The position numbers and the translations under genes were made by a program. From a virus, in IMG/VR virus record IMGVR_UViG_3300027842_000203, positions 1 through 49,639 of that record: 49,639 bases of DNA; one strand, 5' to 3'. Under the pieces are notes generated by a model. That model did not search any database. It saw nothing but the letters and a program-made list of their open reading frames with translations, and was not told the DNA's origin. Positions within the stretch are counted from its first letter, which is position 1. Each line of letters starts with the position of its first letter. Below are positions 1,768 to 26,832 of this stretch, piece by piece.

Positions 1768-2423
1768 GCACCCTCAGACTCTACGACATCCCGGCCGAGG
1801 TCGATTTCTTTGAGCAGGAACTCATCCACTCCGGCGGCGAGCTGACCCCGGAACTGGAAGAGCGCTGGAAGACGTTCGTCAAGGCCGGGCGGGACAAGAT
1901 CGAAGGCGCCTGCATGGTGGTCAAGAACCTTGAAGCGATCGCCGACGTTTCCGGGGAAGAATCCAAGCGCCTCTACGACCGCGCCCACCAGTTCCAGAAG
2001 AATGCCAAGCGCCTGAAAGACCTGATGGTCTACGCCGTCGATGCCTTCGGCGGCAAGGTCAAGACCATGCTCTTTACGGTATGGACGCAGAACGCTGCCA
2101 ACCGCACCAGCGCTGAGCTCAGGGACGGCACCGACCTGGTCGCGATCGAGAAAACCCATCCCCAGTTTGTGCGCGTGAAGCGCGAGCTTAACACCGAAGA
2201 AATTCTCAAGTACCTCGGAGAGTCCGGCTGGAAACCGGCGCCGCTGCCCTCGGACTGCGAGCAATGCAAATCGCTGGCCGAGCCGGGGCGGATCCCGGTG
2301 GCCGAGTGGATTGAACATCACCCCAAGTGCACGGCGGAAGCCGATGCCGAGAAACACGCCAACCTTCCAGCGGGAATCACCGTGCGCTGGGTCAGAGGCG
2401 TGAGATTTCTCCGAGTCAAGTGA
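1764..2423 (+). CDS. Gp157-like phage protein
   Basis: 219 residues. Residues about 10-115 match the pattern of the Siphovirus Gp157 family (PF05565): an acidic N-terminal helix, the VVKNLEAIADV segment, a coiled-coil-like helix with repeated K/R (RLYDRAHQFQKNAKRLKD), then a short beta strand around KTMLFTVWTQ. The C-terminal 70 residues are an extension with a CEQCKS motif and a His/Cys pair that may bind metal. Gp157 proteins were linked to phage resistance in Streptococcus thermophilus and often sit beside annealing proteins, as here. It overlaps its neighbour by the ATGA arrangement. Confidence 0.7.
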   Translation: MSTLRLYDIPAEVDFFEQELIHSGGELTPELEERWKTFVKAGRDKIEGACMVVKNLEAIADVSGEESKRLYDRAHQFQKNAKRLKDLMVYAVDAFGGKVKTMLFTVWTQNAANRTSAELRDGTDLVAIEKTHPQFVRVKRELNTEEILKYLGESGWKPAPLPSDCEQCKSLAEPGRIPVAEWIEHHPKCTAEADAEKHANLPAGITVRWVRGVRFLRVK

Positions 2424-2435
2424 AAGGGAACGGCC

Positions 2436-2609
2436 ATGCGCTTCAACATTGAATTCGATATCGACATGTGGTTGGTGGTTCCCGCCGAAGACGGACCCTA
2501 TTCTTCGCAGGGCGAAGCTCAACTGGAGTGTAATTCCAGAAACAAATCACTCGGCTGGACCGGCTCCTGGGTTGGCGAAGAGGAAGAGCCAGAAGGTGAA
2601 GCCGCATGA
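2436..2609 (+). CDS. Small acidic hypothetical protein
   Basis: 57 residues, starting at ATG 2436 after a gaaagggaacgg ribosome site. It begins with alternating Phe/Ile/Asp residues and ends in a Glu-rich tail (GEEEEPEGEAA). No known family. The stop overlaps the next start by four bases, which supports real coding. Confidence 0.6.
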   Translation: MRFNIEFDIDMWLVVPAEDGPYSSQGEAQLECNSRNKSLGWTGSWVGEEEEPEGEAA

Positions 2610-2734
2610 CCCTCGCTCTGGCCTGGATTCTCTGCTTTATCGCCGGCGCTGCCTTCGGCGCGGGAACGATCCTGATGCTCATCGGTCATCCTTCGACTGA
2701 GCCGACCAATGAGAAAGGATCTCCGGCGGCGTGA
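2606..2734 (+). CDS. Small single-span membrane protein
   Basis: 42 residues, ATGA-coupled to the gene before and GTGA-coupled to the gene after. Residues 3-27 form one hydrophobic helix rich in Ala, Leu and Gly, so it is probably a membrane protein with a short polar C-terminus. Function unknown. Confidence 0.5.
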   Translation: MTLALAWILCFIAGAAFGAGTILMLIGHPSTEPTNEKGSPAA

Positions 2735-3036
2735 CCGACGACCAAATCACAATCCGCGAACTCGGGCGCTTCCGCTGGTCGCTCGAATTTCCCTACAACG
2801 AGGAATTCATCTCCTGGCTGAAGCAGCGTATTCCGCATCAGGACCGCACTTACGATCCTGAGACGCATATCTGGATAGTTAGCGGCGACAGCGATGTTCG
2901 TTTGAACGCAATCGAGAGCATCGCCGTCCAAAAGTTCCGCTTCGCCGTGCGCTGGTACCGCAACTCAGACGGCAAGCTGACCATGCGCAATCTCAAAACC
3001 GGAGTGGAGACGGTGCAGGAGGAATTGTTCACATGA
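2731..3036 (+). CDS. Hypothetical protein
   Basis: 101 residues from a GTG start that overlaps the upstream stop. Residues 12-50 contain a pattern (hydrophobic strand, FPYNEEFISWLK, YDPETHIWIV) reminiscent of small HARP-like substrate-binding modules of SNF2 helicases, but this resemblance is weak. The rest is basic and beta-rich. A nucleic-acid-binding role is only a guess. Confidence 0.55.
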   Translation: MTDDQITIRELGRFRWSLEFPYNEEFISWLKQRIPHQDRTYDPETHIWIVSGDSDVRLNAIESIAVQKFRFAVRWYRNSDGKLTMRNLKTGVETVQEELFT

Positions 3037-3329
3037 GCGGCCACCACACTGCCGGACCTCTCATGCATGATGCCGATGCCCTTGTAGTCAAGGACCTAGC
3101 AGGCCGTCTTATCGCGAAACTGAGCCTATCCTGGGGTGAAGTCACGCGCAACGAAGCTGTTGCGAATGGCTTTCTCTTCGCCTCCGCTCCTGACTTGCTG
3201 GCTGCCTGCCATGCATTCTGCCGCGCTTTCTCAGAACCAAAACAGGACCTCGACGCGGAGAAGAACGCGATTCGTCACGCCTACGACTTGGGGCGGACTG
3301 CCATCGAGAAAGCGGAGGGCCGCCGATGA
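3033..3329 (+). CDS. Conserved small phage protein
   Basis: 98 residues. The segment around residues 44-60 (NGFLFASAPDLLAACHAF) matches the A-N-A-x-x-I-A-A-P-D-L-L-x-A-L signature seen in many small phage proteins of unknown function. The C-terminus is a charged helix. ATGA overlaps on both sides place it in the early operon. Confidence 0.65.
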   Translation: MSGHHTAGPLMHDADALVVKDLAGRLIAKLSLSWGEVTRNEAVANGFLFASAPDLLAACHAFCRAFSEPKQDLDAEKNAIRHAYDLGRTAIEKAEGRR

Positions 3330-3562
3330 AACGCTCTGACGCTACGAAAATTCACCACACCAACCTGGTCATAGACAAAACCTATCGCCTGCGTTCGAGC
3401 AAAGGCGAAGGCGATGTCCAGCTGCTCGAAGACAAAGGCGTCGAGGGCTGGCTGGTGATGATCATCCGTGGCCAGTTCACGGTGTTTGAAAAGAAATACC
3501 GAGCGGGCGAAACCTTCTTAGTTCCGCCTACCTGGGACGGCTGGTACGAACTGCAAGCATGA
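3326..3562 (+). CDS. Hypothetical protein
   Basis: 78 residues, ATGA-coupled to both neighbours. Predicted mostly beta strand, with aromatic residues at the C-terminus (TWDGWYEL). The N-terminal half contains several Lys/Arg residues. No family recognised. Confidence 0.6.
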   Translation: MKRSDATKIHHTNLVIDKTYRLRSSKGEGDVQLLEDKGVEGWLVMIIRGQFTVFEKKYRAGETFLVPPTWDGWYELQA

Positions 3563-24904: not shown

Positions 24905-25288
24905 ATGAAACTTGCTCTCTGCCTGCTGGCGCTCAGCCTTTCCTGCTTTGCCCAGCAGGCGGACTCTACATCGTCCGCATCGCAGCCTCCCAGCGCCCCG
25001 CAGCCCAAGGTTCACGAGACGCTCTTCGATCCTCAGAACGTCACCATGTTCTGGGCCGATGCCACGGCGATGGCTGGAGAGATCGGCGCAAGCTGCTCGG
25101 ATACTACGGTCTCTAGGTTGGACTGCCGCAACATCGCGATCGGCGGTGCCGGATTCATGGCGGTCGAGGTCCTGGGCACGGCAGTACTGCACAAAACCGG
25201 CCACCACAACTTCGAAAGAGTTCTCCCACCGGCCGCGATCCTGTTTCATGTAGCGCGGCTGGTCTATGTGAGTACTCACCGCAAATGA
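24905..25288 (+). CDS. Exported membrane-anchored protein
   Basis: 127 residues from ATG 24905. LALCLLALSLSCFAQQ is a typical signal peptide (cleaved near Ala 16). A hydrophobic helix lies at about residues 76-92 (IAIGGAGFMAVEVLGTAV) and another near 106-122 (VLPPAAILFHVARLVYV). Probably an envelope protein of unknown role; ATGA-coupled to the next exported gene. Confidence 0.6.
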   Translation: MKLALCLLALSLSCFAQQADSTSSASQPPSAPQPKVHETLFDPQNVTMFWADATAMAGEIGASCSDTTVSRLDCRNIAIGGAGFMAVEVLGTAVLHKTGHHNFERVLPPAAILFHVARLVYVSTHRK

Positions 25289-25815
25289 AACGCATACTCG
25301 TAATCGCCTCATCTCTCGCGCTGGTTGCGGCAACACACGCGCAGAGCGTGCGCCTGCCGAATCCCAAGCTCACGCCGGGCGCGACGACAGATGCCACGGC
25401 TACGGCGCTTTGCTCGAAGAGCTTCCACACGGGCTCGGTGCGCAACGTGCCGGAGTCGGAGAAGAATGCCGTCTACAAGGAATATGGCATCTCGAACCAT
25501 AAAGGCTACTGCGCGGGCGCGGAAGGCTGCGAGATCGACCATTTGATCTCGCTGGAACTGGGCGGCTCGAACGACATCAAGAATCTCTGGCCGCAACCTT
25601 ACGGCCAGCATCCTGGCGCACACGAGAAAGACTGGCTGGAGAATGCATTGCATAGACTGGTTTGTGCGCGAAAGATCAGTCTAGAGAAGGCTCAGCAAAT
25701 GATTGCGCGGGATTGGTACAGCGCGTACCGGCAAATCTGTATAGAGTTCCCGCCCGCCAATTCCTCAGGTAGCACGCCTTGCAGAGCCCACGGGACACGT
25801 GAGGCGAAGAAGTAG
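25285..25815 (+). CDS. Secreted HNH-type nuclease, 3' end apparently replaced
   Basis: 176 residues from ATG 25285. Signal peptide MKRILVIASSLALVAATHA. The core GCEIDHLISLELGGSNDIKNLW is the D-H...N motif of a secreted HNH family, followed by KDWLENALHRLVCARKISLEKAQ and DWYSAYRQ. The DNA from about 25640 is more AT-rich than the first 350 bases, and the region downstream holds a second copy of the same C-terminal segment (26222-26368). The simplest reading is that the 3' end was swapped when the adjacent endonuclease inserted. The protein is probably still full length. Confidence 0.7.
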   Translation: MKRILVIASSLALVAATHAQSVRLPNPKLTPGATTDATATALCSKSFHTGSVRNVPESEKNAVYKEYGISNHKGYCAGAEGCEIDHLISLELGGSNDIKNLWPQPYGQHPGAHEKDWLENALHRLVCARKISLEKAQQMIARDWYSAYRQICIEFPPANSSGSTPCRAHGTREAKK

Positions 25816-26221
25816 AGTGGCACTCCTGACAACAATCAAATCCAATACCCCATCGGCCATTCTTGCCATGAAGAAGGCAGTGGTCGATCTGGTGAAGCAG
25901 TTCGAGGTTCGTTGGCCTGTTATCGGCGCGGTCATGGTTCTTGTGGTGTACATGCTCATTGGTTGCAAGCTGCCTGCCCAACACCTGCTCCATGACCAAG
26001 CGATGCTCCATCGAGAACCGCCCTCTGCTGTCATCCCAGACCATGACGTAGCCATTGAAGATATATCTGGCACTCTTATAGGCTACCGATCGTCCGTCTC
26101 CTCTCTTAATGCACATGTTGTACTTGCCAGCGCACGACAGATTGCAGAACTTTCGAGGCCTAGCTTTCTGCCGGCTGATGATGGGCGCGCCGCACTGGAT
26201 ACAGCTAAAACTAAATGGCAT
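25676..26221 (-). CDS. HNH homing-type endonuclease
   Basis: 181 residues on the minus strand, start ATG at 26221. CIQCG...CNLSC (zinc), HRLVMEQVLGRQL, EHVHHKNHDRADNRPTNLEL (HNH), IDHCLLHGK, and CQEC...CKACYLRNWRAG (second zinc site). This is the HNH_3-type layout of free-standing homing endonucleases. It is the only convincing minus-strand gene in the window and lies between two copies of another gene's 3' end. The DNA is more AT-rich than its neighbours. The last 25 residues overlap antisense to the upstream gene and may not matter. Confidence 0.8.
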   Translation of the reverse strand: MPFSFSCIQCGAPIISRQKARPRKFCNLSCAGKYNMCIKRGDGRSVAYKSARYIFNGYVMVWDDSRGRFSMEHRLVMEQVLGRQLATNEHVHHKNHDRADNRPTNLELLHQIDHCLLHGKNGRWGIGFDCCQECHSTSSPHVSRGLCKACYLRNWRAGTLYRFAGTRCTNPAQSFAEPSLD

Positions 26222-26368
26222 GACGAGAGAGTAACACAGTTGGAAAACTGGCTACATCGCCAGGTCTGCGCGAAAGCGATGTCGCTGGCCGAGGCGCAGA
26301 AAGCCATCTCGGGCAACTGGTACGCAGCCTACAGGAAGATGCTGGCGGCGCAGGGCGTGAAGCGGTAA
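26222..26368 (+). pseudogene. Displaced 3' end of secreted HNH nuclease gene
   Basis: Encodes RVTQLENWLHRQVCAK then AQKAISGNWYAAYRKM, similar over 40 residues to the C-terminus of the gene at 25285 (LEN.LHR.VCA..., AQ..I...WY.AYR), though the DNA differs. It has the GC-rich composition of the surrounding phage. It looks like the original 3' end, left downstream of the insertion, with no start of its own. Ends in TAATG overlap with the next gene. Confidence 0.6.
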
Positions 26369-26832
26369 TGCCTACCGCGCCAGCCGTCGCGTGTAGATGC
26401 GGCGGACTGAACTGCACCGAGCATAACCGTTCCGGTAATCAGCGCGCAGCCGATCGGTTCCGCGGTAGTTCCAATTCACGTGGTTATGGGCATAACTGGC
26501 GCAGTCGGCTACAGCCTATGGTCTTGGCGCGTGATCCACTCTGCCGAGATCCGTTTAAACGCGGCTGTACCAATGCCAGCCGCATAGGCGATCACATCAT
26601 CCCAAAGGCTCACGGTGGTACGGATGCCCTAGAGAACCTGCAAGGCATTTGCACGGATTGCCACAATGCCAAGATCCACCTTGAGCAGCAGGTCAAGTTC
26701 ACAAGAGACTGCGCCTGCGAGATACCCATGACTGCTCGCCTGATCGCAACGAACGTGATCGCCCTTGCCTGCGAGGCGCATGCCAAGCCTGGCTCGCTGC
26801 CAGTGGCATCGTGGACTAGGATGGTCGCCTAG
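26368..26832 (+). CDS. Packaging-associated HNH endonuclease
   Basis: 154 residues from ATG 26368. RGYGHNWRSRLQPMVLARDPLC, then GDHIIPKAHGGTDALENLQGICTDCHNAK is the classical HNH signature (D-H, N, C-x2-C-H-N). HNH genes immediately ahead of terminase genes are typical of cos-type phages, where the protein works with terminase on DNA cleavage. The N-terminal part has extra cysteines (CRCGGLNC). Confidence 0.85.
   Translation: MPTAPAVACRCGGLNCTEHNRSGNQRAADRFRGSSNSRGYGHNWRSRLQPMVLARDPLCRDPFKRGCTNASRIGDHIIPKAHGGTDALENLQGICTDCHNAKIHLEQQVKFTRDCACEIPMTARLIATNVIALACEAHAKPGSLPVASWTRMVA

Follow-up and report, generated by a model that had tools for sequence, protein, structure and literature searches.

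In a 49,639-base virus record, the whole of which we call the window, a minus-strand HNH endonuclease gene lies between two copies of the C-terminal segment of an HNH-like nuclease. We interpret this locus, with good but incomplete confidence, as a homing element that operates without splicing, in which a divergent substitute 3' end is joined in frame to the host gene, an antisense HNH gene accompanies it and the original end is displaced downstream. The usual view is that a homing endonuclease entering a coding sequence either relies on a self-splicing intron or an intein or else breaks the gene. A substitute gene end carried along by the element is a third way to invade coding sequence, otherwise described, as far as we found, only in fungal mitochondria.

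Two copies of a nuclease C-terminus around an antisense HNH gene

The host gene is a plus-strand open reading frame of 176 codons (25285-25815) that lies upstream of a TerS/TerL/HK97-portal cassette and is made of three parts. Its 5' part (25285-25635, plus strand; EIDHLISLELGGSND...NLWPQPY...GAHEKDW) runs in frame into the supplied, or substitute, 3' segment (25636-25737, plus strand; LENALHRLVCARKISLEKAQQMIARDWYSAYRQI), and this is followed by a chimeric tail with the stop codon (25738-25815, plus strand), whose 26 codons derive from the strand opposite to that encoding the endonuclease C-terminal Zn-ribbon rather than from nuclease sequence. The endonuclease gene occupies the opposite strand (25676-26221, minus strand, 181 codons), and its last 20 or so codons are antisense to the supplied nuclease copy, so that the two genes are interlocked at that edge. 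A spacer of 18 nt (26222-26239), which forms the right edge of the element, separates the endonuclease start codon from the displaced and presumably original nuclease 3' end (26240-26368, plus strand; LENWLHRQVCAKAMSLAEAQKAISGNWYAAYRKMLAAQGVKR-stop). This orphan is a second copy of the last 42 or so codons of the nuclease, with the segment LENWLHRQVCAKAMSLAEAQKAISGNWYAAYRKM at 26240-26341 and then a tail to the stop codon at 26366-26368, and it has neither a start codon of its own nor an N-terminal part. The initial annotation had described these pieces from the sequence alone, with an upstream copy fused in frame, a downstream copy without a start and the minus-strand HNH gene between them, and all of them are present; its junctions, at about 25640 and 26222, are refined here to 25635/25636 and about 26239/26240.

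Two further reading frames overlap or adjoin the locus. A 189-codon open frame on the plus strand (25799-26368) traverses the full length of the HNH gene in antisense, continues into the orphan copy and is probably due to chance. Directly after the orphan copy, beside TerS and TerL, lies a second, unrelated HNH gene (26368-26832, plus strand; PF01844); an HNH gene beside the terminase genes is also found in many TerL relatives, and the one in the window is probably an ordinary terminase-associated HNH protein.

The minus-strand gene matches Pfam HNH_3 (PF13392) above the curated cut-off (38.3 bits against 24.8, E=1e-9) and PHROG HNH families with a best E value of 3.9e-21, and is of the homing type. 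It encodes an N-terminal CxxC finger, an HNH core (EHR...VHHKN...DNRxxNL, 25904-26008) and a C-terminal Zn-ribbon (25769-25834), and an alignment with 17 relatives shows that the catalytic residues H73, H92, H93, N95, N101 and N105 are present. Neither a group I or group II intron nor any other Rfam RNA was found between 25000 and 26900 at E values up to 1. Being antisense to its host gene, the HNH gene needs a promoter of its own, and a consensus scan found no sigma-70-like promoter for it, a point that counts against the reading as a homing element.

The host nuclease belongs to a family, and about 170 relatives are found among viral and bacterial contigs. Its label as a secreted nuclease should be read as provisional, as it rests on a hydrophobic, signal-like N-terminal stretch recognized by eye and on an HNH-like motif that Pfam HNH matches at E=0.008, under the curated cut-off. 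Sequence searches of solved structures returned no match, and comparing folds gave no information on the nuclease. The duplicated segment contains several residues that hardly vary across 42 aligned family members (E119, N120, L122, H123, C127, Q137 and W144). Both copies in the window keep these residues, the supplied one E119, N120, H123, C127, Q137 and W144 among them. The relatives stop shortly past the equivalent of 25737, where the foreign tail of the window gene starts. The AlphaFold model of the nuclease is confident, including the helices of the duplicated segment, and the chimeric tail is disordered or of low confidence. An insertion before LEN that brought no substitute would delete the segment with these nearly invariant residues.

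Origin of the two copies

The upstream and orphan copies are identical at 56% of amino acids and 57% of nucleotides, and a DNA-level repeat search detected no repeat between them. Their similarity score of 104 exceeds those of all 7,482 mismatched flank pairs (maximum 66), and the resemblance is therefore not a chance one.

Third-position GC content (GC3) is 0.76 in the nuclease 5' part, 0.58 in the upstream copy, 0.62 in the HNH gene and 0.86 in the orphan. The composition break that had been proposed from the sequence thus holds in its direction, with lower values in the upstream copy and the HNH gene than in the 5' part and the orphan, but it is weak (Fisher tests, p=0.047 for the 5' part against the upstream copy and 0.008 for the orphan against the upstream copy) and rests on small samples. 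A second indication comes from covariation within the family: nuclease relatives that carry G111, as the window does, have an aromatic residue at position 121 in 41 cases against 11, and those without G111 in 7 against 66, and residue 121 is tryptophan in the orphan and alanine in the upstream copy. Compared with ordinary genes, rank congruence with the 5' part falls at the 0.8th percentile for the upstream copy, which is unusually low, and at the 14th for the orphan, a result that is suggestive only. These three weak lines favour the downstream copy as the native one, and the direction of events in the window is inferred rather than observed. Maximum-likelihood tree placement does not discriminate between the copies: it does not put the orphan with the window's own 5' part, a point against the insertion reading, and it gives no clear answer on the donor lineage with which the initial annotation expected the upstream copy to group.

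The roles could also be reversed, with the upstream copy native and the downstream one brought in with the HNH gene. We consider this very unlikely: it fits the in-frame position of the upstream copy behind the 5' part, as well as maximum-likelihood placement at the tree position of the 5' part, where the lnL deficit of the upstream copy is the smaller one (5.7, compared to 9.5 for the orphan), but it is the orphan that has the aromatic residue and the glutamine typical of a PGAHEKD-type 5' part, the orphan whose GC3 is nearer to that of the 5' part, and a downstream copy that empty alleles in mycobacteriophages, described below, show to be native.

Alternatively, the window may once have held two tandem paralogous nuclease genes, between which an ordinary intergenic HNH gene landed before the 5' part of the second paralogue was deleted. 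The copies have diverged as paralogues would (56% at the amino acid level) and tree placement ties neither of them firmly to the 5' part. Uninterrupted tandem paralogues had been named at the outset as the observation that would overturn the insertion reading, and no complete pair occurs among 169 relatives, where a partial extra match with matching coordinates is seen in two contigs only (L227 and L233). Nor would tandem paralogues account for the distance of 18 nt between the HNH gene and the start of the orphan, a spacing rule that other loci follow (L016, L354, L335 and the mycobacteriophages, below), or why a mobile unit should include the supplied copy, and we judge this origin improbable.

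An uninterrupted allele of the window gene itself was not found. Single-protein and profile scans of viral and bacterial contigs and of 399 genomes of one class returned no uninterrupted close relative of the nuclease, the nearest relatives being about 60% identical. In no TerL relative does the nuclease gene precede TerS, and the contig of the nearest one (76% in TerL) ends at TerS.

Recurrence at other genes and a mobile unit in mycobacteriophages

The layout of the window, with copies of one coding segment on both sides of an HNH gene, recurs at other genes. At 87 distinct loci with HNH relatives, we compared the edges for flanking copies, taking mismatched pairs as the null, and in the narrow screen the window, L016, L354 and L332 scored above every null pair, with L335 at 4 in 10,000. 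At L016, the C-terminal segment of a DNA methyltransferase (LEERYVEIAIKRLQQSVLPLE) is followed by an antisense HNH gene, and an orphan (CEEKYCEIAARRLRQSVLPLEGVA-stop) begins 15 nt past the HNH start codon. At L354, an unknown gene ends in LIFRSKEKLESFQERVPG...NLNG-stop, the ATG of a same-strand HNH gene overlaps that stop, and an orphan (LIFRDKAKMESFAERVPG...NLS-stop) lies 1 nt past the HNH stop. At L335, a methyltransferase has ALKPAFEPVVCARKP before a nested HNH gene and AARPAFEPVVVARKPLSGTVAANV after it. Replacement of a 3' end proper is seen only in the window, L016 and L354, none of which has empty-allele proof of its own. Separately, an HNH gene at L332 (1723-2827) lies between two copies of the N-terminal region of a gene (QCAACRDTLSASLAYEVAILLTRHAGG and SCARCRETVPSARALEVVVLLTARRGG), the downstream gene being complete, and may represent such a unit placed at a gene start.

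In every one of the six cases measured, the native copy resumes a few nucleotides from the edge of the HNH gene (18, 15, 1, 1, 4 and 4 nt). GC3 of the host 5' part is nearer to the native than to the supplied copy in 6 of 6 cases, of which those in Mantra and OwlsT2W are not independent, and the pattern at L016 is not clean. Where the two copies have identical residues, their codons are also identical at 22 of 80 positions, compared to 30.3 expected from codon usage (P=0.027). Because codon sharing is this low, we regard the supplied copy as fully recoded, as is expected if its own enzyme must not cut it, or if its source is a distant homologue.

The arrangement is a minority one, as 11 further HNH-relative loci from phage records (L397-L407), mostly at ordinary intergenic positions, showed no convincing flanking copies. 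In a stricter flank screen L054 was borderline, and L012 and L359 were rejected as low-complexity artefacts; a screen with loose thresholds was swamped by low-complexity matches.

Alleles with and without the insertion can be compared directly in mycobacteriophages. In Mantra, OwlsT2W, ShiLan and Murica, an HNH gene lies, in a different frame, within a DNA methyltransferase gene, whose own reading frame runs through the insertion, whereas Contagion, Ksquared, PopTart and SirDuracell have empty alleles that read ALKP/[AS]FEP[IV]VVARKPL. Occupied alleles read ALKP/SHEPVVVARKP...HNH.../AFEPIVVARKPLVG, that is, a divergent segment of the form S[HY]EPVxVAxKP follows ALKP, then comes the HNH gene, and after it AFEPIVVARKPL returns. 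Of the 33 nt downstream, 25-31 agree with the empty alleles, and of the 33 nt upstream only 16-21. The inserted unit measures 606 bp, a multiple of three, and its ends are the same in all four phages with occupied alleles. Comparison of Murica (Kostyavirus) with OwlsT2W (Cheoctovirus) gives 99.2% identity for the unit and 97% for its supplied 33 nt, but 68% and 74% for the flanks; with megablast, full 606-nt matches were found in Murica, MISSy, Filuzino, Pollywog, Bipolar, ShiLan and OwlsT2W, and a match with 98% cover in Starcevich. As the unit is nearly identical between such diverged flanks and the empty alleles match the downstream segment, these allele comparisons identify the downstream copy as native in mycobacteriophages and show the supplied segment and the HNH gene to be mobile as one unit. 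The proposal, made initially for the window, of an insertion that carries its own replacement 3' end draws its support from these empty alleles and the 606-bp unit, together with the recurrence at L016 and L354.

These data also bear on whether endonuclease mobility needs to be invoked at all. Illegitimate recombination might have pasted a segment with nuclease and HNH sequence from one phage into the 3' part of the homologous gene of another; phage mosaicism is common, the upstream junction in the window falls within a conserved homologous stretch, and there are no cleavage data. However, a defined element is indicated by the ends of the unit, which coincide exactly across several phages from two genera, and by the small, constant distance that separates the HNH gene from the native copy, and we find such pasting hard to credit as the origin of the locus.

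The methyltransferase gene of mycobacteriophages is an insertion hotspot in other respects as well (L408:551-3433 in ShiLan, L317:1413-3737 in Mantra and L324:314-2290 in Kersh). That of ShiLan also has an intein-like insert (CLTADTEV...FITGNSG), and those of Mantra and Kersh have an in-frame LAGLIDADG-like insert (YWLAGLIDGEG). In the Mycobacterium phage MKC-IRE-02, an HNH gene (L319:2306-2851, plus strand) lies antisense inside a coding sequence annotated as methyltransferase (1935-3488, minus strand), which stays open across it; the site differs from that of the 606-bp unit and no flanking copy was seen at this HNH gene. Short genes annotated as methyltransferases are found in Ksquared (gp58, L323:1989-2240), OwlsT2W (gp68, L325:2625-2876) and ShiLan (gp67, L408:3573-3824), the first two being orphan 3' ends of 83 amino acids. 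No HNH gene separates these three from the preceding methyltransferase genes, whose own ends are formed by an unrelated tail (VVTTKLRLRADLTPEQVDHVVARLREAGVEID).

Proposed mechanism and relation to known systems

Under the homing-element reading, the window would contain an intronless element of about 604 bp (about 25636-26239), composed of a copy of the last 34 or so codons of the host gene and an antisense HNH gene. The endonuclease is presumed, without cleavage data, to cut uninterrupted alleles just before the conserved coding motif KDx/LENWLHRQVC, and homing is likewise inferred: repair from an occupied allele would copy the element in, with the host 5' part and the original 3' end serving as homologous flanks. 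The supplied segment would be joined to the 5' part by continuity of the DNA, so neither RNA nor protein splicing would be needed, and would restore a working C-terminus, although function of the hybrid nuclease is an inference. The recoded DNA of the supplied segment may protect the occupied allele against renewed cutting, an immunity that we deduce and have not observed. The original 3' end would remain as an untranslated orphan; its silence, like expression of the hybrid gene, is inferred. More generally, phages may carry widespread, exactly bounded and splicing-free units in which an HNH gene of either orientation is combined with a recoded piece of the invaded gene, at 3' ends or inside genes, the piece keeping the gene working and the occupied allele uncuttable, a generalization on which our judgement is evenly divided.

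Such units matter beyond the window. Culturable mycobacteriophages carry the HNH version as a mobile unit with exact limits, which opens the mechanism to laboratory tests. Comparisons of phages should reckon with gene ends of foreign origin, and the annotated methyltransferases of some mycobacteriophages hide an overlooked, nested endonuclease gene.

Like group I introns and inteins, the window element occupies conserved coding sequence and does not destroy the gene it enters. Unlike group I introns, it has no Rfam intron match, and carried coding DNA, not splicing, would restore host function; an intein is excluded by the antisense orientation of the endonuclease and by the stop codon of the host gene. 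With the free-standing seg and mob endonucleases of T4, which insert between genes or split them (mobE in nrdA, mobA in gene 60), it shares an intronless endonuclease gene within or beside a conserved phage gene, but no substitute host-gene end, as present in the window, turns up in the consulted passages or in a term search of a review of T4-type mobile DNA (PMC2988022). The I-HmuI-like HNH endonucleases, for example those of lactococcal Skunavirus, have in common with the window element homing-type HNH catalysis, variable presence and many insertion sites, and a 2025 survey of Skunavirus HNH genes, as far as a term search shows, does not mention a duplicated host-gene segment such as the one found here (PMC12724721).

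The literature, searched with subscription papers largely outside our coverage, yielded a fungal precedent and no phage description of the arrangement. In mitochondrial gene hybrids, a foreign C-terminal segment in frame is followed by an endonuclease gene and then by the displaced native C-terminus, as in atp6 of Allomyces macrogynus, atp6, atp9, cox2 and nad3 of Glomus, atp9 of Rhizopus and cox2 of Mortierella (PMC3630166). The window has the same order of parts, and in both systems the copies differ widely at the DNA level, with the protein conserved. Whereas the mitochondrial hybrids carry LAGLIDADG or GIY-YIG enzymes, the enzyme in the window is of the HNH_3 family and is found in a phage, and in both the window and L016 the endonuclease gene is antisense and overlaps the supplied copy. 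By analogy, then, the window element appears to work like the fungal mitochondrial group without being a member of it.
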